Origin: Meiothermus luteus
GTDB lineage: Bacteria; Deinococcota; Deinococci; Deinococcales; Thermaceae
DNA length: 43,700 nt
Direction of reading: 5' to 3'
Assembly: GCF_003574085.1 (NCBI RefSeq)
Contig: NZ_QWKZ01000009.1
Coordinates: 1 to 43,700, forward strand
The notes beneath the pieces were generated by a model. It saw only the letters and a list, made by a program, of their open reading frames with translations, did not search any database and was not told the DNA's origin. Each line of letters opens with the position of its first letter. Position 1 is the first letter of the stretch. The translations under genes and the position numbers were made by a program. Positions 4,056 through 38,726 of the stretch are shown in pieces.

Positions 4056-5395
<1,340 letters not shown>

Positions 5396-5429: not shown

Positions 5430-6623
5430 ATGCGCGAGGTGTTCGTGGTGGCAGCAGTGCGCACCCCTATCGGTCGCTTCGGGGGAGCGCTCAGGGATTT
5501 TTCTCCCGTGGAGCTAGGGGCCCAGGCGATGAAGGGGGCCCTCGAGCAGGCTGGGCTGTCGGGGGCCGAGCTAGACCTGTACATCTTCGGCCAGGTTCTG
5601 CGGGCTGGGCATGGTCAACTTCCCCCCCGACAGGCTGCGCTTTTGGCCGGGATACCCAACACTGTGGACGGCTACGCGGTGGACATGGTCTGCGCCTCGG
5701 GCCTGCAGGCGGTGGCCAGCGGGGCCCTGGCCATCCGGGGGGGCGATGCCGAGCTGGTGCTGGTGGGGGGGATGGAGTCCATGTCCCAGGCGGGCTTCTA
5801 CCTCTCCAGCCGGGCCCGCTGGGGCTACAAGTACCTGGCCGGGGCACCCGAGCAGCTTCAGGACATCCTCCAGCGCGACGGCCTTTCCGACCCTTTCAGC
5901 GGCGAGGCCATGGGCGAGCAGGCCGAGCGCCTGGCCGCCGATTTTGGGGTAGGCCGGACCGAGCTGGACGAGGTGGCCCTGGAGTCCCACCGGCGGGCCG
6001 CCCAGGCCCAGGAGTCCTGCTGGTTTAGCCGGGAGATTCGGCCCCTCGAGCTCAAGACCCGCAAGGGGGTAGAGCGGCTGGACCGGGACGAGGGGGTACG
6101 GCCCGACACCACCTTGGAGGCCCTCGCGGCCCTTCGGCCGGCTTTCCGCAAGGACGGCGTGCTTACCGCGGGCAATGCCTCGCAGATTTCCGATGGGGCT
6201 GCGGCCCTTTTGCTGGCCAGCCCTGAGGCGGTGGAGCGCTACGGCTTAAGGCCGCTGGCCCGGGTATTGGGGGGTAGCTGGGCGGCGGGCGAGCCCTGGC
6301 GCTTCCCCGAGGCTCCAGTACCAGCGGTGAAAAAACTCCTGGAAAAGCTCCGGCTTTCTATCGCCGACTTTGACCTCTTTGAGAACAACGAGGCTTTTGC
6401 CCTCAACAACATCCTCTTTCACCGCCTTCTGGGAGTGCCTATGGAGCGCCTGAATGTGCATGGCGGGGCCATCGCCTTGGGGCACCCCATAGGGGCTTCG
6501 GGGGCCCGCATCCTGGTTACGCTGGTTCACGCGCTGCGCACCCACAACAAGCTGCGCGGGCTGGCGGCCATCTGCCACGGTACGGGGGGCTCGGCGGCCC
6601 TGGCGGTGGAAGCGGTGGCCTAG
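5430..6623 (+). CDS. pcaF: Thiolase, probable 3-oxoadipyl-CoA thiolase (PcaF)
   Basis: A 397-residue thiolase. The acylated cysteine is Cys88 (DMVCASGLQAV), the His is His352 (IALGHPIGASGAR) and the second active cysteine is Cys382 (AICHGTGGSAAL). The CHGTGG form replaces the commoner CxGGGQG. It would cleave 3-oxoadipyl-CoA to succinyl-CoA and acetyl-CoA, the last step of the pathway. The ATG at 5430 has GGAGGCGG just upstream; the longer frame from 5376 lies inside pcaIJ. A general acetoacetyl-CoA thiolase cannot be excluded from sequence alone. The stop shares the palindrome CTAG with the stop of the convergent DUF503 gene. Confidence 0.85.
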   Translation: MREVFVVAAVRTPIGRFGGALRDFSPVELGAQAMKGALEQAGLSGAELDLYIFGQVLRAGHGQLPPRQAALLAGIPNTVDGYAVDMVCASGLQAVASGALAIRGGDAELVLVGGMESMSQAGFYLSSRARWGYKYLAGAPEQLQDILQRDGLSDPFSGEAMGEQAERLAADFGVGRTELDEVALESHRRAAQAQESCWFSREIRPLELKTRKGVERLDRDEGVRPDTTLEALAALRPAFRKDGVLTAGNASQISDGAAALLLASPEAVERYGLRPLARVLGGSWAAGEPWRFPEAPVPAVKKLLEKLRLSIADFDLFENNEAFALNNILFHRLLGVPMERLNVHGGAIALGHPIGASGARILVTLVHALRTHNKLRGLAAICHGTGGSAALAVEAVA

Positions 6624-6946
6624 ACGGTCCAGCTCGGCACCAGCTCCTCTAGGCTCACCTCCTCAACGCTCCACTGGGCCTGAACCACCCGGTACTCGCC
6701 CTGGGCCGCGATGAACTCGGCGGCCTGGCGCAGCACGGTTTCTACCCAGACCCCGTCATAACCGATGAGGCTGAACCCCACCACTTCCCAGGCGTGGTCG
6801 TCCTGGCCAGCGAGCCGCGCTGCGGACACCGGAAAGCGGGCCCTGAGCTTCTCGATGGCCGGCTTTATAAGGGCCCGCTTCTCCTTGAGGCTCCTCACCC
6901 AGGGCATTTCCAAGCGCGCGGTATAGACCCCCAGGTAGGCTTTCAT
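6620..6946 (-). CDS. DUF503 family protein (YlxP-like)
   Basis: A 108-residue protein with the DUF503 pattern: LGVYTARLEMPWVRSLKEKR at the N-terminus, then an acidic helix and a beta strand (WEVVGFSLIGYDGVWVE). Members are small ferredoxin-like-fold proteins of unknown function, often near ribosome-maturation genes in Firmicutes. Here it stands alone between the pca operon and a divergent lipoprotein gene. It has no ribosome site; instead TAGAAT (- strand, 6953-6958) lies six bases before the ATG, suggesting a leaderless message. Its stop overlaps the pcaF stop head-on. Confidence 0.8.
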   Translation of the reverse strand: MKAYLGVYTARLEMPWVRSLKEKRALIKPAIEKLRARFPVSAARLAGQDDHAWEVVGFSLIGYDGVWVETVLRQAAEFIAAQGEYRVVQAQWSVEEVSLEELVPSWTV

Positions 6947-6952
6947 GCCTTG

Positions 6953-6958
6953 ATTCTA
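6953..6958 (-). promoter_or_regulatory. Leaderless-type -10 box (TAGAAT) of the DUF503 gene
   Basis: Read on the minus strand this is TAGAAT followed by six bases and then the ATG, with no Shine-Dalgarno sequence. The TAnnnT-then-start layout is the known form of leaderless promoters in the Deinococcus-Thermus phylum. The assignment is by motif only. Confidence 0.45.
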
Positions 6959-6997
6959 CGGGATAACTTCTCATCTTTTCGGGTTAGGCTTGGTTTC

Positions 6998-8829: not shown

Positions 8830-9486
8830 GTGGGCGAGGACTGGCCTTTTCTGGAAGAGGGCTTTTTTTCGTCCTGGGAACCTCCGGAGGCGATGGATGC
8901 CCTTTGGGCCCAGGGTTGGCGGCATTTTGGGACCTTCTTCTTCCGCTACAGCCGCCTGGGGGCCTACCGGGTGTTGCCCCTGCGGGTCCGGCTCTCGGCC
9001 TTCCGTATGCGCCGGAGCCAAAGGCGGGTCCTGCGGAAAAACCAAGACCTGCGGGTGGAGTGGCGTTCGGCCTTTGTGAACGAGGAGGTGGAGCGGCTCT
9101 TTGAGCGCCACAAGGCCCGTTTCCGGGAAAACCCTCCGAGGAGCATCCACAGCTTTCTCTCTCCAAATCCCGCCTGGGTTCCCTGTAGGGCCTACAGCCT
9201 TGTCCTGTACCACCGGGAAAAGCTGGTGGGAATTAGCTATTTGGACGAGGGCCGGGAGGCCACCTCGAGCGTCTACCAGTGCTTTGAACCGGAATACGCA
9301 GACCGCAGCCTGGGCATCTTCTTGATCTTGCTGTCCATCCTTCGCTCGCTGGAGTGGGGCAAGCGCTACTACTATCTGGGCTACGCCTACCTCGAGCCCT
9401 CCTTTTACGACTACAAGAAGCGCTTTTTGGGCCTCGAGGGCTACGACTGGAGACGCTGGTGCCCCTATACCCCGGAGGGCCTATAA
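8830..9486 (+). CDS. Arginyl/leucyl-tRNA-protein transferase-like protein (ATE/Bpt fold), lacking the N-terminal cysteines
   Basis: A 218-residue protein resembling bacterial aminoacyl-tRNA-protein transferases, which add an amino acid to N-degron proteins. Family segments are GWRHFGTFFFRYS, LPLRVRLSAFRMRRSQRRVL (the RSQRR core), LVGISYLDEG and YYYLGYAYLEPSFYDYKKRF near the C-terminus. The cysteines that normally surround the first of these segments and bind an iron-sulfur cluster in ATE1 are absent; only Cys residues in VPCRAY, YQCFEP and RRWCPY remain. GTG at 8830 is used because TGAGGAAG precedes it by eight bases. It may be a diverged GNAT-fold enzyme with a different role. Confidence 0.65.
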   Translation: MGEDWPFLEEGFFSSWEPPEAMDALWAQGWRHFGTFFFRYSRLGAYRVLPLRVRLSAFRMRRSQRRVLRKNQDLRVEWRSAFVNEEVERLFERHKARFRENPPRSIHSFLSPNPAWVPCRAYSLVLYHREKLVGISYLDEGREATSSVYQCFEPEYADRSLGIFLILLSILRSLEWGKRYYYLGYAYLEPSFYDYKKRFLGLEGYDWRRWCPYTPEGL

Positions 9487-9487
9487 T
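9482..9487 (+). promoter_or_regulatory. Leaderless-type -10 box (perfect TATAAT) of the molybdopterin oxidoreductase gene
   Basis: A perfect TATAAT overlaps the stop of the upstream gene and lies six bases before the GTG at 9494. No matching -35 box is seen and no ribosome site is correctly spaced; GGAGGG at 9475-9480 is 13 bases away. This fits a leaderless promoter, giving fdhF its own transcription start despite the tight gene spacing. Confidence 0.5.
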
Positions 9488-9493
9488 GGGTCT

Positions 9494-11782
9494 GTGGCGC
9501 TCAAACCGGTTAAAAAGGGTCTGAGCCCAGAGACCTGGGCTAGCCTCAGGCCCTTTGGCCTGGGGTTGCAAAAACCCAACAACTTCGCCGAGGTCTTCCG
9601 GGCCATCGCTGAAAACCGCGACAACCTGGCCTACGCCTGGCGCATCCTGAGCCAGGGGGTCTGCGACGGTTGCGCCCTTGGGACGAGCGGCCTGCGGGAC
9701 TGGACGATCTCGGGCCTCCACCTTTGCAACATCCGGCTTCGGCTTCTCCGGCTGAACACCATGGGGCCCCTGGATGGAAGCCTGCTGGCCGATGTGTCGG
9801 CGCTTAGGTCCAAGAGTTCTGCCGAGCTGCGGGCCTTGGGCCGCCTGCCCTATCCCCTCTACCGCCGCAAGGGGGAGCCGGGCTTTACCCGCATAAGCTG
9901 GGATGAGGCGCTGGACCGCATCGCCCTTCGGATGTGCAAGACTCCTCCGGAGAAGATGGGCTTCTACCTGACCAGCCGGGGCCTGCCCAACGAGACCTAC
10001 TATGTGGTGCAGAAGGCGGTGCGGGCCTTGGGCTGCAACAACATAGACAACGCGGCTCGCATCTGCCACAGCCCGAGTACGGTGGCCCTCAAGGAGTCGC
10101 TTGGGGTGGCGGCCACCACCTGCAGCTACCGCGACCTGATCGGCACCGACCTGGTGGTGTTCTTGGGCTCCAACCCGGCGGTCAACCAGCCGGTGATGAT
10201 GAAGTACCTGTACTACGCCAAGAAGGCCGGCACCCAGGTGGTCTGCGTGAACCCCTACCGCGAGCCGGCTATGGAGCGCTACTGGGTTCCCTCCGACCCT
10301 GAGAGCGCCTTCTTTGGGACCAAGATTGCCGACCGGTTCTTCCTAGTGGTCCCAGGGGGGGACGCGGCCTTTTTGGTGGGGGTCTTGCGGCACCTCATTG
10401 AGCAGGGCTGGCTGAACGAGCCCTTCATTGAGGCCCACACCACGGGGTTTGAGGCGGTGCGGGCCCAGGCTTTGGGGGCCGGGTGGGCGGAGCTCGAGCG
10501 GCTTTCGGGGGCGAGCCGCCAGGAGATGCTCGAGTTCGCCCTGCTGCTGGCCAAGGCAAAGCGGGCGGTGCTGGTCTGGAGCATGGGCCTCACCCAGCAC
10601 ACCCGGGGGGAGGAGGCTGTGCAGGCCGTCATCAACCTGGCCCTCAGCCGGGGCTACCTGGGGCGGGAGGGCTGCGGCCTGATGCCCATCCGGGGCCACT
10701 CTGGCGTGCAGGGTGGGGCCGAGATGGGGGCCTACGCCACGGTTTTTCCTGGGGGTGTGCCCATTGGGCCGCAAAGTGCCCAGGCCCTTTCCAGCCTTTG
10801 GGGCTTCTCGGTGCCGGACCACCCCGGCCTCACCGCCACGGAGATGCTCGAGGCCGGCCTGGAGGTTCTTTGGAGCATCGGGGGGAATTTCTTGGAAACC
10901 CTGCCCAGCCCGGCCCAGGCCGAGGCTTGCCTAGCCCGCATCCCCCTGCGGGTGCACCAGGACATCGTCCTTTCCTCCCAGATGTTGATAGAACCAGCCG
11001 AGGAGGTCTTTGTCCTCCCGGCCACCACCCGCTACGAGATTCCCGGGGGCTGCACCGAGACCAGCACCGAGCGGCGGGTCATCTTCAGCCCGGAAATCCC
11101 CGGCCCCCGCATCCCCGAGGCTCGCTGGGAGGGGCAGGTTTTTCAGGACTTGGTGGGCCGGATGTGTCCGCCCGAACGGGCTGAGAAGGTCCGCTTTGAG
11201 GGAACCCAGGCCGTGCGGGAGGAGATTGCCCGGGTAGTTCCGCTTTACGAGGGCATCCAGCGCCTCAAGGCCAAGGGGGAGGCCTTCCAATATGGTGGCC
11301 CCCACCTCTGCAAGGATGGGGTCTGCCCTACCCCAGACGGGAAGGCCCGCTTCCGGCCGGTAGACTTCTCGCAGGAGGGCCCGCCCGAGGGGGCCTTCCG
11401 TCTGGTCACAAGGAGGGGAAAACAGTTCAACAGCATGGTTCACGAGCCCACCGATCCGGTCAACGGCGCGCCTCGCGATGCGGTGCTGATGAGCCCGTCC
11501 GATCGGGAAAAGCTGGGCCTGAAGCCCGGCCAGCGGATCTGGCTGCACAACCGCTTTGGCACCTTTGCGGGCCGGGTCTTTGAGGCTCCGGTGCGCCCGG
11601 GTAGCCTGCAGGTGCACTGGCCGGAGGGAAATGTGCTGCTAAGCCCCAAAGAACGCTCTTCCAAGGCCAAGATTCCGGCCTACAAAGAGGCGTATGTCTA
11701 CGTTCACCAAGAACCGCCCCAAAGCCAAGACCCCGACCACCTTGCTGCGGGTGGAGGGGGAGCGGGTCTACCCGAGGTCTGA
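9494..11782 (+). CDS. FdhF/YdeP-family molybdopterin oxidoreductase
   Basis: A 762-residue DMSO-reductase-superfamily protein of the YdeP/formate dehydrogenase-alpha-like group. The N-terminal cysteines Cys57 and Cys60 (GVCDGCALGTSG) and Cys78 (LHLCNIR) could hold a reduced iron-sulfur site. Bis-MGD binding segments include FYLTSRGLPNETYYV, VVFLGSNPAVNQPV and MGLTQHTRGEEAVQ. The C-terminal domain has KQFNSMVHEPTDPVNG and RIWLHNRFGTFAGRV. Cytoplasmic, with no Tat signal. The following fdhD overlaps it by 89 bases, which supports a formate dehydrogenase-like, sulfurated cofactor. The true substrate of the YdeP group is not settled. Confidence 0.85.
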   Translation: MALKPVKKGLSPETWASLRPFGLGLQKPNNFAEVFRAIAENRDNLAYAWRILSQGVCDGCALGTSGLRDWTISGLHLCNIRLRLLRLNTMGPLDGSLLADVSALRSKSSAELRALGRLPYPLYRRKGEPGFTRISWDEALDRIALRMCKTPPEKMGFYLTSRGLPNETYYVVQKAVRALGCNNIDNAARICHSPSTVALKESLGVAATTCSYRDLIGTDLVVFLGSNPAVNQPVMMKYLYYAKKAGTQVVCVNPYREPAMERYWVPSDPESAFFGTKIADRFFLVVPGGDAAFLVGVLRHLIEQGWLNEPFIEAHTTGFEAVRAQALGAGWAELERLSGASRQEMLEFALLLAKAKRAVLVWSMGLTQHTRGEEAVQAVINLALSRGYLGREGCGLMPIRGHSGVQGGAEMGAYATVFPGGVPIGPQSAQALSSLWGFSVPDHPGLTATEMLEAGLEVLWSIGGNFLETLPSPAQAEACLARIPLRVHQDIVLSSQMLIEPAEEVFVLPATTRYEIPGGCTETSTERRVIFSPEIPGPRIPEARWEGQVFQDLVGRMCPPERAEKVRFEGTQAVREEIARVVPLYEGIQRLKAKGEAFQYGGPHLCKDGVCPTPDGKARFRPVDFSQEGPPEGAFRLVTRRGKQFNSMVHEPTDPVNGAPRDAVLMSPSDREKLGLKPGQRIWLHNRFGTFAGRVFEAPVRPGSLQVHWPEGNVLLSPKERSSKAKIPAYKEAYVYVHQEPPQSQDPDHLAAGGGGAGLPEV

Positions 11783-12539
11783 CTACCTGGCCACCGAGGA
11801 GCCGCTGGAGATTCGCTTGGTGGCGCAGGGGGGGGAGGGGCGCACCCTGGCGGTTACGATGCGCACCCCGGGCCACGACTTTGAGCTCGCCGCGGGTTTC
11901 TTGTTTGCCGAGGGGATCGTTTCCCGCAGGGAGGAGATACGTCGCATTAGCTACTGCGCACCGCGGGGTGAGCCTCAACAGTACAACGTGGTGAGCGTGG
12001 CCATAAACGCCCCCCACCTACCCGAGCTGACCTCCTTTGAGCGCCACTTCTTCACCCACTCGGCCTGTGGGGTCTGCGGCCGGGCCAGCCTGGAGAACCT
12101 CTACCGCCGCTACCGCCCTCTGCAAGACGGCCCGACGGTGCCGGCCCGTCTGCTGCTTGCCCTGCCGCAGAGGCTGCTGTCCCATCAGACCCTCTTCGGG
12201 GCTACCGGCGGGCTCCATGCAGCGGCCCTTTTTGACCCTGAAGGCGGCCTGCTGGCCTTGCGGGAGGACGTGGGCCGGCACAACGCCGTGGACAAGCTCC
12301 TGGGCTGGGCCTTGTTGGAGGGCCGGCTACCCTTGTCCGAGTGCTTGCTGCTGGTCAGCGGGCGGGCCAGTTTTGAACTGGTGCAGAAGGCCCTGGCCGC
12401 GGAGGTACCCATTCTGGTGGCCCTCTCGGCCCCCAGCAGCCTGGCGGTGGACCTGGCCCGGGCCTTCAACCTCACGCTGGCGGGCTTTTTGCGGTCGGGC
12501 TTCAACCTCTACGCTGCCCCAGAGCGGATCCGGGTTTGA
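11694..12539 (+). CDS. fdhD: Formate dehydrogenase accessory sulfurtransferase FdhD
   Basis: A 281-residue FdhD. The persulfide-carrying cysteine pair is Cys125/Cys128 (HSACGVCGRAS); other family segments are EEPLEIRLV, MRTPGHDFELAAGFLFAEG, ALREDVGRHNAVDKLLG and SGRASFELVQKA. FdhD passes sulfur from IscS to the molybdenum cofactor of formate dehydrogenases. The ATG at 11694 lies 89 bases inside the preceding oxidoreductase gene, an unusually long overlap; the first 30 residues are a basic, poorly conserved extension. A start closer to the conserved part would shorten the overlap, but I see no better candidate. It converges with the DUF815 gene and overlaps its end by 38 bases. Confidence 0.92.
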   Translation: MSTFTKNRPKAKTPTTLLRVEGERVYPRSDYLATEEPLEIRLVAQGGEGRTLAVTMRTPGHDFELAAGFLFAEGIVSRREEIRRISYCAPRGEPQQYNVVSVAINAPHLPELTSFERHFFTHSACGVCGRASLENLYRRYRPLQDGPTVPARLLLALPQRLLSHQTLFGATGGLHAAALFDPEGGLLALREDVGRHNAVDKLLGWALLEGRLPLSECLLLVSGRASFELVQKALAAEVPILVALSAPSSLAVDLARAFNLTLAGFLRSGFNLYAAPERIRV

Positions 12540-13605
12540 CACCTTGAATGGTGGCGAATTGACGGGCTGTTCGGCCCGAAAAGCCCCGGCCCTCTAGGGC
12601 AAAACGCAGTGCGGCCTGGCGGGTGGCCTCGTCTAGGGGCCGTCCTAGGATGTGGGCCACCGCCTCTAGGTAGAGCGGCTGGTCAAAGGGAGGGAAGGTG
12701 AGGACCAGGCCAAAGCGGTCGGCCAGGGCCAGCTTGTCCTGAAGGGTGTCCCAGGAGGCGGGCTCGGGGGCGTTGGGGTCGGGCCGGTCGCTCCACTGCT
12801 CCCGCACCAGGTTGCGCCGGTTGGAGGTGGCCACCACCAGCACGTTGGGGGGCCGTTCGTAGACTGCCCCTTCCAACAGGGCTTTGAGCTTGTGGAAGCG
12901 TTCGTCGTCGCTGCTAAAGGCAAGGTCGTCTAGGTAGAGCACGAAGCGGTAGGGGAGGGGGGCCAGGAGGGCCAGGAGCGCGGGGAGTTGCTCGAGGCTG
13001 TCGGGCAGCACCTCCACCAGCCGCAGCCCCCTCGGGCTGTACTCGGTGCGCAGGGCCTTGACTGCGGTGGATTTGCCCGAGCCTCGAGCCCCGTACAGAA
13101 GGACCGGGACCGCCTCTTTTCCTTCTAAAAACCCCTCCACGTGTTGCCGCAGGGCCTGGAGCTGCCGAGCGTAGCCCACCAGGTCGCTGAAGCGGGCCGG
13201 GTCGGGGTGGGGAACCGGTTCCATCTTCCGGTCGTAGAGGAAGGCGGTGTGCTGCGCGTATATTCCGTACCCGTGGGCCCGGTAAAGCGCTTGTAGTTCG
13301 CTGGCTGAGCCTCCTTGGAGCACCCTGAGGGCCGCCTGTTCGGCGGGGCTGGCCTCGCGCAAACCGAAGTCGGCAAAGGGGTAGCGCTGCTTAAGCTGGG
13401 CGAGTTCGTGCCGCAGCAGGGAGAGCTCCTGCTCAATCCAGTCGCCAAGCCCTGGCGTGAGGGGCTCGGTGAGCAGCCTTCGGGCCAGGTCCTCGGCGTA
13501 CCAGAGGCGTTGGCAGAGGACCCAGGCCCAGGGTTCCCCCCGGGGGGGGTGGGCGTGGAAGAGCTCGGCGAGAGGGCTTTCGTGAAGGGGCGGAAAAAGC
13601 CGCAT
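12502..13605 (-). CDS. DUF815 AAA+ ATPase
   Basis: A 367-residue ATPase of the DUF815 group. Walker A is GARGSGKST (172-180) and Walker B is VLYLDDLAFS. The family-typical segments LKALLEGAVYERPPNVLVVA, TSNRRNLVREQW and LADRFGLVLTFPPFDQ are all present. The function is unknown; members are soluble AAA+ proteins found widely in bacteria. The N-terminal 130 residues are a helical domain. TAGAAT on the minus strand at 13614-13619 is eight bases before the ATG, so the gene may have its own leaderless start although it lies 25 bases after the urate operon. Its 3' end runs into fdhD on the other strand. Confidence 0.85.
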   Translation of the reverse strand: MRLFPPLHESPLAELFHAHPPRGEPWAWVLCQRLWYAEDLARRLLTEPLTPGLGDWIEQELSLLRHELAQLKQRYPFADFGLREASPAEQAALRVLQGGSASELQALYRAHGYGIYAQHTAFLYDRKMEPVPHPDPARFSDLVGYARQLQALRQHVEGFLEGKEAVPVLLYGARGSGKSTAVKALRTEYSPRGLRLVEVLPDSLEQLPALLALLAPLPYRFVLYLDDLAFSSDDERFHKLKALLEGAVYERPPNVLVVATSNRRNLVREQWSDRPDPNAPEPASWDTLQDKLALADRFGLVLTFPPFDQPLYLEAVAHILGRPLDEATRQAALRFALEGRGFSGRTARQFATIQGVKPGSALGQRRG

Positions 13606-31707: not shown

Positions 31708-31783
31708 GCGGGAGTAGCTCAGTTGGCAGAGCGTCAGCCTTCCAAGCTGAATGTCGCGGGTTCGAATCCCGTCTCCCGCTCCA
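31708..31783 (+). tRNA. tRNA-Gly (anticodon UCC), left copy; left attachment site of the element
   Basis: A 76-base cloverleaf: acceptor GCGGGAG/CTCCCGC, anticodon stem TCAGC/GCTGA with loop CTTCCAA (anticodon TCC), T loop GGTTCGAATCC and an encoded CCA. It is identical over all 76 bases, plus one upstream base, to the gene at 38651-38726. Being 12 bases after tRNA-Pro, this copy is probably the original host gene; integration duplicated it. Confidence 0.95.
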
Positions 31784-32316: not shown

Positions 32317-32901
32317 TTATTCGGGGGTCGCCCCTTTCAGGAAGCGGGCGGCCTCTTCGAGGGAGGCGAATACGCGGGTAGGGCCGTTGTACTCCTTCAG
32401 GCTTACGGTGCCCTCGAAGGGCGGTAGAAACTTCAGCAAGTACCACCTACCAGCAATCTTGAAGCGGTATAGGCAGCCACAGCCCTTGGGGTCTATCACC
32501 CGCACCCGTGAGCCCTTCGGTGGGAGCTCGGGCACAGAGTGCCAGTGGGTGGGGCACCCCGAAGGGTCGGGGTCACGGGTAGGGGTAGTGGAGTTTTGAG
32601 TTTTCGCGGAAGGGTCTGCTAAAGTTGCTAAACTTGCTAAACCGGTTGGGTTATCCTCGTTCAGGACGCAAGTTTCAGCTTTAGCAGGTTCTGCTAAAGC
32701 GCTGCTAAAGTCTGCTAAAGTTGCTAAACCCCCAGGGGCCGGGTTCTCATCTTTAGCAGGTTTAGCAGGGTTTAGCAACGGATTAGCGGGGTCTGCTAAA
32801 GGGGTGGAATCCTGTCCTGGAGGGCAAAAGTCTTTGCCGTTTAGCAGATTAGCAACTTTAGCAGGGGGTAACTCGGAAAACTCAAACTTGGGGAAGGGCA
32901 T
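32317..32901 (-). CDS. Element protein of unknown function with a motif-array linker
   Basis: About 194 residues from the ATG at 32901, preceded by GGGAGGT. The start overlaps the end of the DUF3987 gene by 20 bases. Residues 1-17 are conserved with the right-hand copy; residues about 15-105 are an Ala/Leu/Pro-rich, probably disordered linker encoded by the GCTAA/TTAGC array; residues from about 125 (RVRVIDPKGCGCLYRFKIAG, RWYLLKFLPPFEGTVSLKEY, FASLEEAARFL) look like a small folded beta domain. I do not recognise the function. It could be a real protein whose linker hosts DNA sites. The longer frame from 33039 lies within DUF3987 and is not used. Confidence 0.55.
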   Translation of the reverse strand: MPFPKFEFSELPPAKVANLLNGKDFCPPGQDSTPLADPANPLLNPAKPAKDENPAPGGLATLADFSSALAEPAKAETCVLNEDNPTGLASLATLADPSAKTQNSTTPTRDPDPSGCPTHWHSVPELPPKGSRVRVIDPKGCGCLYRFKIAGRWYLLKFLPPFEGTVSLKEYNGPTRVFASLEEAARFLKGATPE

Positions 32902-32933
32902 GGGGGGACACCTCCCAAACTTCAGAGCGTTTG
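32572..32933 (-). repeat. Left arm of the 362-bp inverted repeat
   Basis: The reverse complement of this stretch matches 37222-37583 without gaps. I count five mismatches, all within the first 80 bp or so at the DUF3987 end; the remaining 280 bp or so appear identical. The arm covers the last 17 codons of DUF3987 and the first part of the following ORF. Confidence 0.93.
32616..32863. repeat. GCTAA/TTAGC motif array, left copy
   Basis: About 16 copies of TTTAGCA/TGCTAAA or close variants occur in 248 bp, in both orientations, including the perfect dyad GCTTTAGCAG-GTT-CTGCTAAAGC at 32678-32700. It is the mirror of the array at 37292-37539. Confidence 0.9.
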
Positions 32934-34417
32934 GCGCCCTCGACCTCGAACCCTGTTCGGGGGGCGATGTAGTGGTGGGCCTCAAGAATCCGTAGAACCT
33001 CCCTGGCCTTGGCCGCGCTACGCACCCCAGCGGGGCCAAACTGGTACACCTCCGCCAAATGGAATACCCGGCGGCCCTTGGCTTTGCAATGCTCCACCAC
33101 CCAGGCCAGCACCTCGCCGGCGAGAAGGAGCTCTCGGGGGATGCGGTATCCGCCTACCAACCGCAAAGCCTCGGCCCCGTAGAACTGGGCCAGGACGATA
33201 CCCCGCTCGACGGCCTCTCGGTTTAGCTGAGGAGCCTCGGGGTTGCTGAAGAGGGCCAGCACCCCGGCCAGCCGCAGGGCGTGCTCAGGGAGCTTTGAAG
33301 CCAAGGCGCGGATGGGGGCCAGGTCTCCGGGGATGTTCCTCTCGACATGGTCATGAAAAGCTGTCCAGAGACGCTTCGCCTCGGAGTGCAGGGGCAGCGG
33401 TCGGAGCTCTAGGCCCCGCTTCTTGCTCTCCGGGTCATCCAGCACCCGGCGCTTGAGGGCCTCCAGGATGTTGGCCAACCGGGCGGCATACGCCTGATAG
33501 GCCGGGGTCTCGGCGATGTCCTCGGCAACGTAATACCGGCCCCCAGCGGTGCTCAAAGGGGCGGCGGTGAGCATCCGGGCCAGGATGCCCTGCCCCTGGG
33601 CCAGCGGGTCACTTAGAAGGGTGCGGGCCACCTCAGGCTGGGCCATTAGGTGCAGAGCGAGCCTGCGGTTGAAGAGGAGGGTGGCCCCATCCCCCGCCCT
33701 TACGCGGTCAATGGGGCGGCCATCCCAGAGTTCCGACAACCCTGCAATCGTGCGGAGGCGGTGGTCTCGGGCCATCGCATAACCGCCCAGGAACGAGCCC
33801 CCCTCGGAGGAGAAGAGGCCCACAGCAGGCCAACCCACAGCCAGCAGCTTGACGAGCCCTTCGAGTGTGGGCTCACCCGTGAGCATGATGCCGCTCCAGG
33901 GCTCGGGCGGCGGGGGGCCGAGCTCCTCAAGGGCGGCGTCTTTTTCAGCCCTGCCCTTGCGCTTGTCTGCGAGAAGGCGTTTGCGCTCGGCTTCCCACAC
34001 GGCCATCTGGCCCTGCCAGCGGGTGTACTCCTCTTGCTGGGCCAGGTGCAGGGCTTTCTGGCGTTCGCGAATGGGAGCAGTAGCGACCTCGTCCACCGCG
34101 CTTTTGCGTTCGCCTGATTCGGCGATGGTGAGCAGGTAGAGGTTCAGCGGATAGGTGCGCCCATCAAGGACAACGTTAGCCAGCCCTTGGGTCGCCATGG
34201 ACGCGGCGGCCAGGAAGGAAGCTCCCACCAGCGCATTAGGGGCTTGCACCACGCGCAGGGTCTCACGGGCGACGGCTTCGAGGGGGCCGAGGGCCCCCAA
34301 GGGGAAGAGCTCGGGAGCCTCGGGGTCGCGGTATAGGGGTAGTGGCTCCGGCCAGAGGGCCTCGATTGTGGCTTCAGGGGCTTCTAACAGGTCTGTGAAG
34401 GGGTTATAATCCAGCAT
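32882..34417 (-). CDS. DUF3987 family protein (primase-associated, helicase-like)
   Basis: A 511-residue protein of the DUF3987 type, common in plasmids and prophages next to primases. A P-loop-like IAESGERKSA is at residues 98-107, followed by a charged helical stretch (about 115-165), then EPTLEGLVKLLAVGWPAVGL, SSEGGSFLGGYAM and FNRRLALHLMAQPEVA. A role in unwinding or loading at the element origin is inferred from family and context. The ATG at 34417 follows AAGGAGCG. It lies 21 bases after the primase gene and overlaps the next ORF; its last 17 codons are inside the inverted repeat. Confidence 0.82.
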   Translation of the reverse strand: MLDYNPFTDLLEAPEATIEALWPEPLPLYRDPEAPELFPLGALGPLEAVARETLRVVQAPNALVGASFLAAASMATQGLANVVLDGRTYPLNLYLLTIAESGERKSAVDEVATAPIRERQKALHLAQQEEYTRWQGQMAVWEAERKRLLADKRKGRAEKDAALEELGPPPPEPWSGIMLTGEPTLEGLVKLLAVGWPAVGLFSSEGGSFLGGYAMARDHRLRTIAGLSELWDGRPIDRVRAGDGATLLFNRRLALHLMAQPEVARTLLSDPLAQGQGILARMLTAAPLSTAGGRYYVAEDIAETPAYQAYAARLANILEALKRRVLDDPESKKRGLELRPLPLHSEAKRLWTAFHDHVERNIPGDLAPIRALASKLPEHALRLAGVLALFSNPEAPQLNREAVERGIVLAQFYGAEALRLVGGYRIPRELLLAGEVLAWVVEHCKAKGRRVFHLAEVYQFGPAGVRSAAKAREVLRILEAHHYIAPRTGFEVEGAKRSEVWEVSPHALPQV

Positions 34418-34438: not shown

Positions 34439-35329
34439 CTACCAGGCGGGGGTTTTGTTTGCAACCAACACGTCCAACCAATCAGCGCCAGGGGTACGCG
34501 GCACGGCCAGCCGCACCCGGCGGCCCTCGGCGAGCAGCCGCCCTGCGAGCTTGCGGGCGGCCTCTAGCCCGGCCCTATCGTGGTCGGCGGCAATGACCAC
34601 CTCGCGAGCCTCAGGGGGCAGCACCACCCGCTCCAGGCCTCCGGCGCTCACACAGGCCCACACCGGCCAGCCGGTAACCCCACGGACGGCCAGGGCGGTC
34701 TCGATGCCTTCGGTAAGGGCTAAGGGTTTGTCTGCTTCGAGAGGGTAAAGACGAATCGCAGCGCCCAGGGGTTTGCTTCCGGCGGCCAGCTTCTTCTCCT
34801 TCCGGCCCGAACCATCGGGCTCAAGGAAGGTCAGGTGCAGGCCTCGAAGCTCACCGCGCACATCCTCGACGCGGGCCAGCACCACGGGCCGGTCGCCCCA
34901 CAAGGCCAACCTCAGCGAGGGGGGAGGCTCGATATTGAGCCCTCGGGCCCGTAGGTAGGCCCTGAGCAGGGGATGGTCGGGCTTGGCCGATTTCCACCAG
35001 CGCTCCCAGGGTTCACGCACCCCGGCCTCGGGGGTGGGGGCTTCCGCTCGGCGGCGTGGGGCCAGCCAGGGCCGGTCAGAACCCCTGTAAAGCTCCCGCC
35101 AGCTTAGGCCCACCGCATGGAGCACGGCCTCGGCAGGGCAGCCCGCAAAGCAATGCAGAAGCACCCGCTCGCCTTCGAGGCGAATGCTCAACGCTCTGTT
35201 GCGCCCGCTCCCGTGGGCAGGGCAGGTAGCTGTCCACCTGTCCGGCCCGGCGGGCTTGACGTGAGCGAGGCGCTCCAGCAGGCGGTTGTGCGGTTGACTG
35301 TCGTCGAGGTTTGAAAAAGTATCGGCCAC
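34439..35329 (-). CDS. Zinc-finger/toprim DNA primase
   Basis: A 296-residue primase of the plasmid/satellite type. A CHC2-like zinc site is formed by Cys36, His39, Cys60 and Cys64 (ATCPAHGSGRN and LLHCFAGCPAE). The toprim domain has ALTEGIETALAV and VVIAADHDRAGLEAARKLA. It lacks a fused helicase; the adjacent DUF3987 protein may supply that. The GTG start at 35329 is five bases after GGAGGT. It probably primes replication of the excised element. Confidence 0.88.
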   Translation of the reverse strand: MADTFSNLDDSQPHNRLLERLAHVKPAGPDRWTATCPAHGSGRNRALSIRLEGERVLLHCFAGCPAEAVLHAVGLSWRELYRGSDRPWLAPRRRAEAPTPEAGVREPWERWWKSAKPDHPLLRAYLRARGLNIEPPPSLRLALWGDRPVVLARVEDVRGELRGLHLTFLEPDGSGRKEKKLAAGSKPLGAAIRLYPLEADKPLALTEGIETALAVRGVTGWPVWACVSAGGLERVVLPPEAREVVIAADHDRAGLEAARKLAGRLLAEGRRVRLAVPRTPGADWLDVLVANKTPAW

Positions 35330-35451: not shown

Positions 35452-35658
35452 TCAGGAAGCATCGCTTTCTTGCCGGTTGCCCAGGCCGCCACTCAGCAGG
35501 GCCTCTAACACGGTGCGGGGGAGCACATAGCCACGGCCCAGCCTGATGCCGTACTTGCGCATCAGCCTGTAGGCCGCGTCGCGGCCCACCAGTTGGGGGC
35601 CCAGCACTTCGCGGAGTTGGGACAGGTTCAGTAGGGGGGGTAGCTTCTCGTTTTCCAT
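35452..35658 (-). CDS. Small HTH protein, possible excisionase or regulator
   Basis: A 68-residue protein. LSQLREVLGPQLVGRDAAYR followed by LMRKYGIRLGRGYVLPRTVL has the pattern of a winged HTH of the excisionase/AlpA/MerR-N type (helix, turn, recognition helix, then a short beta hairpin). The ATG is preceded by TTTGGAGGAAAAC. Such proteins steer integrases or regulate element genes. It lies upstream of the primase gene, with 122 bases between, and just downstream of a terminator, so it starts a separate unit. The longer frame up to 35925 is a shadow. Confidence 0.65.
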   Translation of the reverse strand: MENEKLPPLLNLSQLREVLGPQLVGRDAAYRLMRKYGIRLGRGYVLPRTVLEALLSGGLGNRQESDAS

Positions 35659-35668
35659 GTTTTCCTCC

Positions 35669-37183: not shown

Positions 37184-37273
37184 CATGGTATCGCTACGGA
37201 AAGGCAGGGGCTTGCAGGGGTCAAACGCTCCGAAGTTTGGGAGGTGTCCCCCCATGCCCTTTCCCAAGTTTGA
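37184..37273 (+). pseudogene. Remnant of a second DUF3987 gene (C-terminus)
   Basis: In frame, this stretch reads HGIATERQGLAGVKRSEVWE followed by VSPHALSQV and a stop, aligning with HYIAPRTGFEVEGAKRSEVW followed by EVSPHALPQV at the end of the intact DUF3987 protein. The last 17 codons are in the inverted repeat; the codons before it are diverged but still alignable. An in-frame stop lies at 37160-37162 and no further homology is seen upstream. Confidence 0.6.
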
Positions 37274-37583
37274 GTTTTCCGGCTTACCCCTTGCTAAAGT
37301 TGCTAATCTGCTAAACGGCAAAGACTTTTGCCCTCCAGGACAGGATTCCACCCCTTTAGCAGACCCCGCTAATCCGTTGCTAAACCCTGCTAAACCTGCT
37401 AAAGATGAGAACCCGGCCCCTGGGGGTTTAGCAACTTTAGCAGACTTTAGCAGCGCTTTAGCAGAACCTGCTAAAGCTGAAACTTGCGTCCTGAACGAGG
37501 ATAACCCAACCGGTTTAGCAAGTTTAGCAACTTTAGCAGACCCTTCCGCGAAAACTCAAAACTCCACTACCCCTACCCGTGAC
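37222..37583 (+). repeat. Right arm of the 362-bp inverted repeat
   Basis: Ungapped inverted match to 32572-32933, about 98.6% identical. Just beyond position 37583 the match falls abruptly to weak similarity with a three-base gap. Confidence 0.93.
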
Positions 37584-37658
37584 GACCCCTCAGATTGTCC
37601 TACCTACTGGCGCGGGCGGTTTATTTTGGTCAGAGCCGCAACCGCTCCAGCGGGCTAA
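37254..37658 (+). CDS. Truncated copy of the motif-array ORF
   Basis: About 134 residues, opening MPFPKFEFSGLPLAKVANLL with the same ribosome site (GGGAGGT) as the left copy. It shares the first 110 or so residues with the protein at 32317-32901, then ends in an unrelated tail (RGRFILVRAATAPAG) that overlaps the integrase 3' end by 29 bases. The folded C-terminal domain of the left copy is missing. It may be translated, but it is more likely that the DNA, not the peptide, is being kept. Confidence 0.4.
   Translation: MPFPKFEFSGLPLAKVANLLNGKDFCPPGQDSTPLADPANPLLNPAKPAKDENPAPGGLATLADFSSALAEPAKAETCVLNEDNPTGLASLATLADPSAKTQNSTTPTRDDPSDCPTYWRGRFILVRAATAPAG
37292..37539. repeat. GCTAA/TTAGC motif array, right copy (iteron-like)
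   Basis: I count 16 copies of GCTAA or TTAGC, mostly as TGCTAAA/TTTAGCA, in 248 bp. They include the perfect dyad GCTTTAGCAG-AAC-CTGCTAAAGC at 37455-37477 and GTTGCTAAACCC with its mirror GGGTTTAGCAAC. The motif is read as Leu-Ala, Ala-Lys, Ala-Asn, Leu-Leu-Asn and Phe-Ser-Ser, that is in several frames and both orientations, so the conservation is at DNA level. Confidence 0.9.
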
Positions 37659-38568
37659 AACGCCGATGGGCATCGCGCAAAGTGGCCGAATCCATGTGCA
37701 AATAGATAGAGGTGGTCTCCAGCTTGGAGTGTCCAAGCAACACCTGTAGGCTCCGCAGGTCGCCCCCAGCTTTCAGGTACTCCACCGCAAACGTGTGGCG
37801 GAAGGTGTGCGGCCCCACGTGGTCGCGCATAATCCCTGCACGACGGGCGATGCGAATGGTTTCCTGGGTAATCTCCCCGGCCCGCAAAGGGTCGCCGTGG
37901 CGGTCGAGGAAAAGCGTGGCCTCACCCGGCCTACGGGGACGGCGCTCGTTGTTGAGGTACTCGTTGATGGCCCTGAGCGAGCGCTCGGAGAAATAGACGA
38001 TGCGCCCGCCGGTCTTCCCCTCCACCCGCATGGTGCGCTCCCGCCAGTAAATCGCATCAAGCTGGAGCGAGACTGCCTCACCCCGGCGGATGCCGGTGTC
38101 GAGCAGAAGCCGATACAAGGCCAGTTTGCGCCGGGCGTTGGGGGGCTCTGAGGCCGCCGCGAAAAAAGCCCGTAGCTCGTCCGGGGTGAACGGTTGGACA
38201 ACCTGTTTGGGGGGGCGGTAGTGGGGCAGCTCCAGCGACAGGTCGGTCTGGGTGTAGCCGCGCTGATAGAGCCATTTGAGGAAGGGCCGCAACGCCCGCT
38301 CGTACTGCGAGAGGGTGCTGATGGAGACGGAAATGCGCCGACCCCGCCCGCCTTGCGAGCGCTTAGCGGCAAACCAATCCAGCAAAATGGCCGGGGTCAG
38401 CTCGGCCAAGTCGCGCGCCCCCGTCTCCTCCATCAACAGCCGCGCGGCGGTCTCCTGCCAGTGCACCGTAGCGGGGCTTTTGCCGTGAGCCTCCCGCTCC
38501 CGCAGATATTGCCCGAGCAGGGCGTCAAGGTTGGGGGTGGGTCTGGACAGTTTGAGGGGCTTTGGCAT
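37630..38568 (-). CDS. int: Tyrosine recombinase / integrase (XerD-like)
   Basis: A 312-residue integrase. The N-terminal SAM-like core-binding domain spans about 12-105 and the catalytic domain about 125-305. Catalytic residues are Arg161 (DTGIRRGE), Lys185 (VEGKTGG), His254 and Arg257 (GPHTFRHTFA), His280 (LLGHSKLETT) and the nucleophile Tyr289 (SIYLHM). The ATG at 38568 follows AGGAGGTAGCC. It lies 82 bases from the right tRNA-Gly, the usual place for an integrase that recombines at a tRNA gene. Its last 29 bases overlap the truncated array ORF. Confidence 0.93.
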   Translation of the reverse strand: MPKPLKLSRPTPNLDALLGQYLREREAHGKSPATVHWQETAARLLMEETGARDLAELTPAILLDWFAAKRSQGGRGRRISVSISTLSQYERALRPFLKWLYQRGYTQTDLSLELPHYRPPKQVVQPFTPDELRAFFAAASEPPNARRKLALYRLLLDTGIRRGEAVSLQLDAIYWRERTMRVEGKTGGRIVYFSERSLRAINEYLNNERRPRRPGEATLFLDRHGDPLRAGEITQETIRIARRAGIMRDHVGPHTFRHTFAVEYLKAGGDLRSLQVLLGHSKLETTSIYLHMDSATLRDAHRRFSPLERLRL

Positions 38569-38650: not shown

Positions 38651-38726
38651 GCGGGAGTAGCTCAGTTGGCAGAGCGTCAGCCTTCCAAGCTGAATGTCGC
38701 GGGTTCGAATCCCGTCTCCCGCTCCA
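38651..38726 (+). tRNA. tRNA-Gly (anticodon UCC), right copy; right attachment site
   Basis: Identical over 76 bases to the tRNA at 31708-31783, with all cloverleaf parts and CCA intact. Integration at a tRNA gene usually leaves only a 3' fragment at one end; here both are complete. I see no clear promoter directly upstream, so its expression is uncertain. Confidence 0.95.

Follow-up and report, generated by a model that had tools for sequence, protein, structure and literature searches.

The array at 37292–37539 raises the question of why a short word should be repeated in both orientations within coding sequence, and whether what is maintained there is a protein or a stretch of DNA read by some other factor. 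We analysed the array within its window, the 43,700-nt stretch of Meiothermus luteus contig NZ_QWKZ01000009.1 (positions 1 to 43,700, forward strand), and compared it with related loci in other genomes, viral contigs and plasmids.

The array and the element that carries it

Sixteen TTAGC words were identified at 37293–37537 in both orientations, 14 of them in the longer form TTTAGCA, confirming the motif array claimed by the sequence-only reading; the second array that it claimed is also real and was found to lie in one arm of an inverted repeat, carrying the same words (Table 1). All seven mismatches between the two arms fall at 37219–37291 and none affects a word, so the array itself is the same in both copies, without a single difference. 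Dinucleotide shuffles predict 2.2 TTTAGCA for the window (maximum 9 in 100), whereas 31 are present, 28 inside the two arrays; genome-wide, 17 closely paired TTTAGCA were found, 16 of them in the two arrays, and no match to the reversed control pattern. The words occupy four phase/orientation combinations of the ORF, in agreement with the earlier claim of at least three frame contexts and two orientations. The array is also mirrored in both spacing and orientation, with 16/16 words in register to 1 bp or better (p = 0.001, the lowest value obtainable with 1000 permutations of gaps and orientations). Its centre is GC-rich, and no AT-rich unwinding element was recognised at the array; a GC-skew switch at the array, which the sequence-only reading had suggested looking for, was not clearly present.

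Table 1. Coordinates of the arrays, the palindrome near-copies and the surrounding features of the mobile element (positions within the window).
Feature	Position	Strand	Remarks
tRNA-Gly(TCC), left copy, presumed att end	31708–31783	+	
198-aa ORF	32317–32913	-	5′ half carries array copy 1; directly behind helicase
Inverted-repeat arm with array copy 1	32572–32938	-	367 nt, 98% identical to other arm, 7 mismatches
Array copy 1	32616–32863		16 TTAGC words (14 TTTAGCA), both strands, mirror-symmetric
Palindrome near-copy CGTCCTGAACG, mirrored spacer of copy 1	32658–32668		1 mismatch to CGTCCWGGACG
Palindrome near-copy CCTCCAGGACA, spacer of copy 1	32813–32823		2 mismatches to CGTCCWGGACG
DUF3987 replicative helicase, proposed initiator	32882–34417	-	PF13148, E 1.5e-84
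Helicase C-terminal winged-helix domain (residues 428–503), proposed iteron reader	32909–33136	-	AF2 model
Codon of Gln459	33041–33043	-	Residue predicting third base of TTAGCA
Toprim primase (DUF7146 + Toprim_3)	34439–35329	-	
69-aa putative AlpA/excisionase-like protein	35452–35661	-	Judged by eye
Inverted-repeat arm with array copy 2	37217–37583	+	367 nt, 98% identical to other arm
Array copy 2 (array first noted)	37292–37539		Same 16 words as copy 1, inverted orientation
Palindrome near-copy CCTCCAGGACA, array copy 2	37332–37342		
Palindrome near-copy CGTCCTGAACG, array copy 2	37487–37497		
Tyrosine integrase	37630–38568	-	PF00589, E 2.5e-33
tRNA-Gly(TCC), right copy, presumed att end	38651–38726	+	100% identical to left copy

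Both arrays belong to a mobile element of approximately 7 kb with identical tRNA-Gly(TCC) genes on either side; its gene products include an integrase, a Toprim primase, and a DUF3987 helicase. The AF2 model of the helicase (pLDDT 83.5 overall) presents a C-terminal winged helix, which is a prediction only; the best solved structures matching its fold are MCM helicases, at a weak TM of 0.3, and its PHROGs matches comprise a DNA helicase family and weak primase families. The C-terminal ~85 aa of the 198-aa ORF are conserved in relatives; this ORF has no Pfam or PHROG match, and nothing resembling the protein or its C-terminal domain was found in the viral contigs, phages, and plasmids searched. 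The 69-aa protein likewise has no Pfam or PHROG match, and its homologs adjoin related elements. Array copy 2 is inverted and adjoins the integrase gene. With 4.3 kb between them, the inverted arms could flip the replication module; what follows array copy 2 resembles a diverged remnant of the 198-aa ORF, a hint that an old and a new copy have undergone conversion.

Words, spacing, and palindromes among relatives

Homologous loci present a different dense word at the same place, with the same mirror-symmetric spacing. Upstream of the conserved C-terminal region of the ORF, the word is TTAGCA in locus L044 and TTCGCA in L058; other words include CACTGAC (L045–L048 and L056), CACCGACA (L050), ACCCGCAA (L053 and L055), GTGCAC (L044 and L054), and GACATT (L057). 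In L047, word starts are separated by 8, 48, 10, 11, 10, 22, 10, 11, 10, 48, and 8 bp, and orientation is mirrored as well. Mirror symmetry was supported (p < 0.05) in 15 of 23 arrays by permutation of gaps and orientations, and was not significant by this test in L057, L107, and L102.

These comparisons bear on the possibility that the repeat is a low-complexity protein linker, rich in Leu-Ala and Ala-Lys, with the DNA pattern as a by-product. Such a linker would be consistent with the location of the arrays, as 20 of the 24 labelled window-type arrays lie mostly inside the next ORF, and with a 9-bp spacing that keeps frame. However, most arrays use both strands and two to five phase/strand combinations, the spacing is mirror-symmetric, and relatives encode entirely different peptides at unchanged spacing; moreover, some arrays are upstream of the helicase, and others of like layout are intergenic, which refutes the linker, and we give this reading almost no credence. 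The claim that selection acts on DNA and not on protein is strongly supported, since relatives swap the word and keep the layout, the words occupy both strands and multiple frames, and some arrays are intergenic.

A functionless mutational expansion, by slippage or small mobile repeats, might account for some direct repetition at 9–10 bp spacing and for the decay of the words in L048, yet slippage cannot produce mirror symmetry, fixed spacers of ~46 bp, palindrome near-copies in mirrored positions, or covariation with a codon far away; the chance that it explains the array is negligible. The locus L056 (G000:C155) contains, in addition to its CACTGAC array, a one-orientation TGTTTCC array of 19 copies mixed with GTCCACGGT-like words (6394–6986, reverse orientation); it is located downstream of the CACTGAC array and does not resemble the other arrays.

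In most arrays of the window's bacterial family, each of two spacers of ~45–58 bp contains a near-copy of the palindrome CGTCCWGGACG, and in L047 the distances of these near-copies are exactly mirrored. The palindrome was also present in the Thermus-like elements; the distant viral loci yielded none. It is not an enriched chromosomal motif, given 198 genome-wide matches versus 247 for the reversed control, and a role as a genome-wide host motif was rejected.

Covariation of the word with the helicase

The elements encode a primase or prim-pol always near the array, and short words are indeed recognised by primases from elements of this type (PMC8718748). The words might therefore be start sites for the element's own primase or prim-pol, comparable to TTTGGTTA for the NrS-1 polymerase or GTG for pRN1 ORF904. 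This reading was rejected because primase and word are uncoupled in three comparisons: L045 and L046 have helicases that are 89% identical and share the word CACTGAC, with unrelated primases (Toprim in L045, an NrS-1-like prim-pol in L046); L047 has a primase 68% like that of the window, with a helicase and a word that differ from the window's; and L053 and L057 have Prim-Pol domains that are 82% identical, with different helicases and words. The word also tracks a helicase residue (see below), and we consider primase start sites highly improbable. In these sequence comparisons, the word follows the helicase and not the primase.

Two recombinants, with breakpoints at the 3′ edge of the array, reveal the cassette directly. 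From position 12686 onwards, ~30 bp beyond the final L047 word, L047 and L054 share 95% identity, and similarity between L053 and L057 resumes ~30 bp past the L053 array. Closely related helicases carry closely similar words, as in L109 (ACCCGGCA) and L110 (ACCCGACA), for which the helicase parts show few differences, including TK to RN at 740–741. A second, hybrid array was observed in L110 (G032:C9) at ~5000–5300, with CCCGGCA words in its left half and CCCGACA words in its right half, as if recombined between two origin types.

The words behind window-type helicases have T(A/C)GCA in common, and the variable base is predicted by one residue of the helicase. A rule assigning this base to the winged-helix residue located two positions ahead of the conserved GP was written after the first loci and before the test; for this residue, 459 in the window's helicase, Gln corresponds to TAGCA and Arg to TCGCA. 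Held-out loci were labelled by a fixed count rule and only labelable loci were scored; the residue rule held in 12/12 scorable held-out loci (7 Gln, 5 Arg; Fisher p = 0.0013). Overall, it held in 23/24 loci (TAGCA in 13/13 with Gln, TCGCA in 10/11 with Arg; p = 5.6e-6). The exception, L131, has Arg with TAGCA, and its array is located upstream of the helicase; L152, also an exception, has Lys with TAGCA. On a tree built without the winged-helix domain, eight independent pairs (switches) were found on well-supported branches; the base changes in the same way in 7–8 of the 8 pairs and never in the opposite way (sign test p ~0.008). Residue 459 ranks first among 451 alignment columns (z = 17.4), followed by the neighbouring residue 460 (4.3), in a scan that includes the loci in which the rule was first seen. 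In the predicted winged helix, this residue sits where the second helix ends. Gln reading adenine and Arg reading guanine are common in protein–DNA contacts. A residue rule for the base preceding T(A/C)GCA was searched for by eye only, and nothing simple was found.

The sequence-only reading had listed iterons for a replication initiator, segregation sites, and repressor sites as candidate functions; the first is selected, because changes in the word go together with changes in the neighbouring replicative helicase and in a single residue of its C-terminal winged helix; the other two are not. Cruciform extrusion, which the same reading had raised for the dyads, is not required. An operator, copy-number, or centromere-like partition site for a repressor or segregation protein could also show clustered short sites on both strands, an HTH-like gene (69 aa) is present in the element, and the invariant palindrome could be an operator. 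The array is, however, located behind the helicase gene and not at a promoter, its word changes together with the winged helix of the helicase itself, and no ParA/ParB-like gene was detected among the seven element proteins scanned, which makes a site of this kind very unlikely; autoregulation of the helicase as a second role of the array is not excluded.

Distribution, known systems, and a proposed origin

In a Thermus-like genus without the C-terminal domain of the 198-aa ORF, arrays lie directly behind DUF3987 helicases, with the words GTAGCCA, CCCGGCA, ACCCGAC, and ACCCCCC. Outside the phylum of the window, the sample consisted of viral contigs, plasmid records, and one Filomicrobium genome. 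Arrays were found directly behind DUF3987 helicases in many IMG/VR viral contigs, in Filomicrobium (ATAGGCA), and in a Streptomyces plasmid (TGACAGA, 8 copies), and a Bartonella plasmid has a weaker array (GGTTTTGA, 5 copies). The helicase of L133 is only ~35% identical to that of the window, and its word is the window's own TTAGCA. No clear array was identified at the DUF3987 loci L129, L143, and L162, and none at the DUF3987 gene yfjI of the E. coli K-12 element CP4-57 (L124).

Several other repeats were observed at these loci. Six copies of CATAGTGC are located near yfjM/rnlA in L124 (~11901–12200). In L146, a TGCGACA array follows a TAGCA array ~410 bp after the helicase, so that one element has two words. 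Dense CCCCGCA (10 copies) and CTGCTGC clusters were found ~3.1–3.5 kb upstream of the DUF3987 gene in L170, and nine copies of ACCCCAA in L115 (G096:C294, ~9200–9600), near a distant homolog, from another family, of the C-terminal domain of the 198-aa ORF.

The sequence-only reading knew of no described system with this layout, which holds only in part. Reading of iterons behind its own gene by a mobile-element helicase is known: the C-terminal domains of SaPI Rep and SCC Cch2 bind short iterons directly downstream of their genes, SaPI Rep apparently as two hexamers, and the Cch2 iteron is AAGTG (PMC7581432). The window's element likewise encodes its own helicase, with several short iterons immediately behind that gene and, by AF2 prediction only, a C-terminal winged helix on the protein. 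It differs from SaPI Rep and SCCmec Cch2 in having words of 6–8 bp, in the mirror symmetry of the array and its usual location within the following ORF, and in the residue–base rule and the second, invariant palindrome, which are new here. In the Pfam and PHROG scans, which involved no head-to-head alignment with SaPI Rep, the helicase showed no match at family level to Rep or Cch, and Pfam assigned it to DUF3987 and to no other helicase family. The literature searched contained neither this helicase family, nor the dyad layout shared among relatives, nor the residue–base rule; no description joining DUF3987 with origin or iteron terms was found in the open-licence literature, which is not proof of absence.

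Other systems present partial likenesses. Phage P4 alpha combines a Toprim primase, a helicase, and winged-helix binding of short repeats (summarised in PMC4234260). The window's element shares the Toprim primase, the helicase, and, by prediction, the winged helix, whereas here primase and helicase are separate genes, and homology to alpha has not been shown. P4 has a second site, crr, which is paralleled only by the duplicated array of the window's element. pRN1 ORF904 also carries a C-terminal winged helix with an origin just downstream of its gene, although that origin is a ~100-bp stem-loop (PMC4234260) and not an iteron array. Lambdoid phages have origin iterons within gene O, which fix part of a protein (PMC7466680). 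The array resembles them in placing iterons in coding sequence, as the origin of lambda overlaps gene O; however, the iteron-carrying ORF is not the apparent binder here, which is the upstream helicase, and a lambdoid-type origin, with iterons in the gene of the binding initiator, was rejected as the array lies in the ORF after the helicase and specificity tracks the helicase. The PICMI satellites of Vibrionaceae are small integrative elements with an integrase, an AlpA, a DUF3987 primase/helicase, and a mandatory Fis (PMC10803314); the window's element has the integrase and DUF3987, an AlpA by eye only, and no Fis match among the seven proteins scanned, and a text search of the PICMI paper found no mention of iterons. 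An iteron plasmid with a RepA/pi-type Rep and 17–22 bp direct repeats was also rejected, as no such gene is present among the scanned element proteins and the words are 6–8 bp on both strands.

The explanation that, taken as a whole, best accounts for these observations, and in which we have high confidence short of certainty, is that the array is the element's replicon-specific replication origin, akin to those of SaPI Rep and Cch2 but belonging to a different helicase family, and read by its own DUF3987 helicase; no binding or replication data are available. Counting against it are the GC-rich centre without an evident AT-rich unwinding element, the exceptions L131 and L152 to the residue rule, the DUF3987 loci at which no clear array was identified, the arrays whose mirror symmetry is not significant, and the weakness of the MCM fold match. 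The two mirror-image sets of 7-bp iterons would form the origin of a small integrative mobile element and would be bound by the C-terminal winged helix of the helicase encoded directly upstream. The dyad layout fits a pair of helicase rings facing opposite ways; placed by the dyad, they would melt the DNA, and the element's primase would then start forks in both directions. The origin would overlap the coding sequence of the next gene, with each replicon type having its own word, and in the window's helicase subfamily Gln459 or Arg459 would specify A:T or C:G at the third position of TT(A/C)GCA. The two CGTCCWGGACG-like palindromes in elements of the window's bacterial family are probably bound by another factor, one that does not depend on the word. 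What the sequences establish is the words, the dyad, the covariation, the breakpoints, and the residue rule; from these we infer binding, the loading of two rings, and origin activity. Iteron binding by the DUF3987 C-terminal domain and unwinding are supported only indirectly, by the residue–base covariation.

More broadly, it is likely, although held less firmly, that DUF3987 helicases, which are widespread in integrative elements, plasmids, and viral contigs, represent an unrecognised family of origin-reading initiators, whose origins are dyad word arrays in the following gene and whose word may be readable from the helicase, with Gln or Arg at 459 giving A or C and related rules applying at other positions or in other subfamilies (e.g., TK to RN with ACCCGGCA to ACCCGACA). 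For the window itself, the word array very probably marks where a small mobile element starts to replicate, and it runs across coding sequence behind the helicase. If this is true, the origins of many DUF3987-bearing mobile elements would be findable from sequence alone, and the compatibility of elements would be predictable from a winged-helix residue. The family would further provide a clean model of joint change in initiator and origin specificity, with at least eight natural switches, in which an origin has been rewritten repeatedly while overlapping a coding gene.
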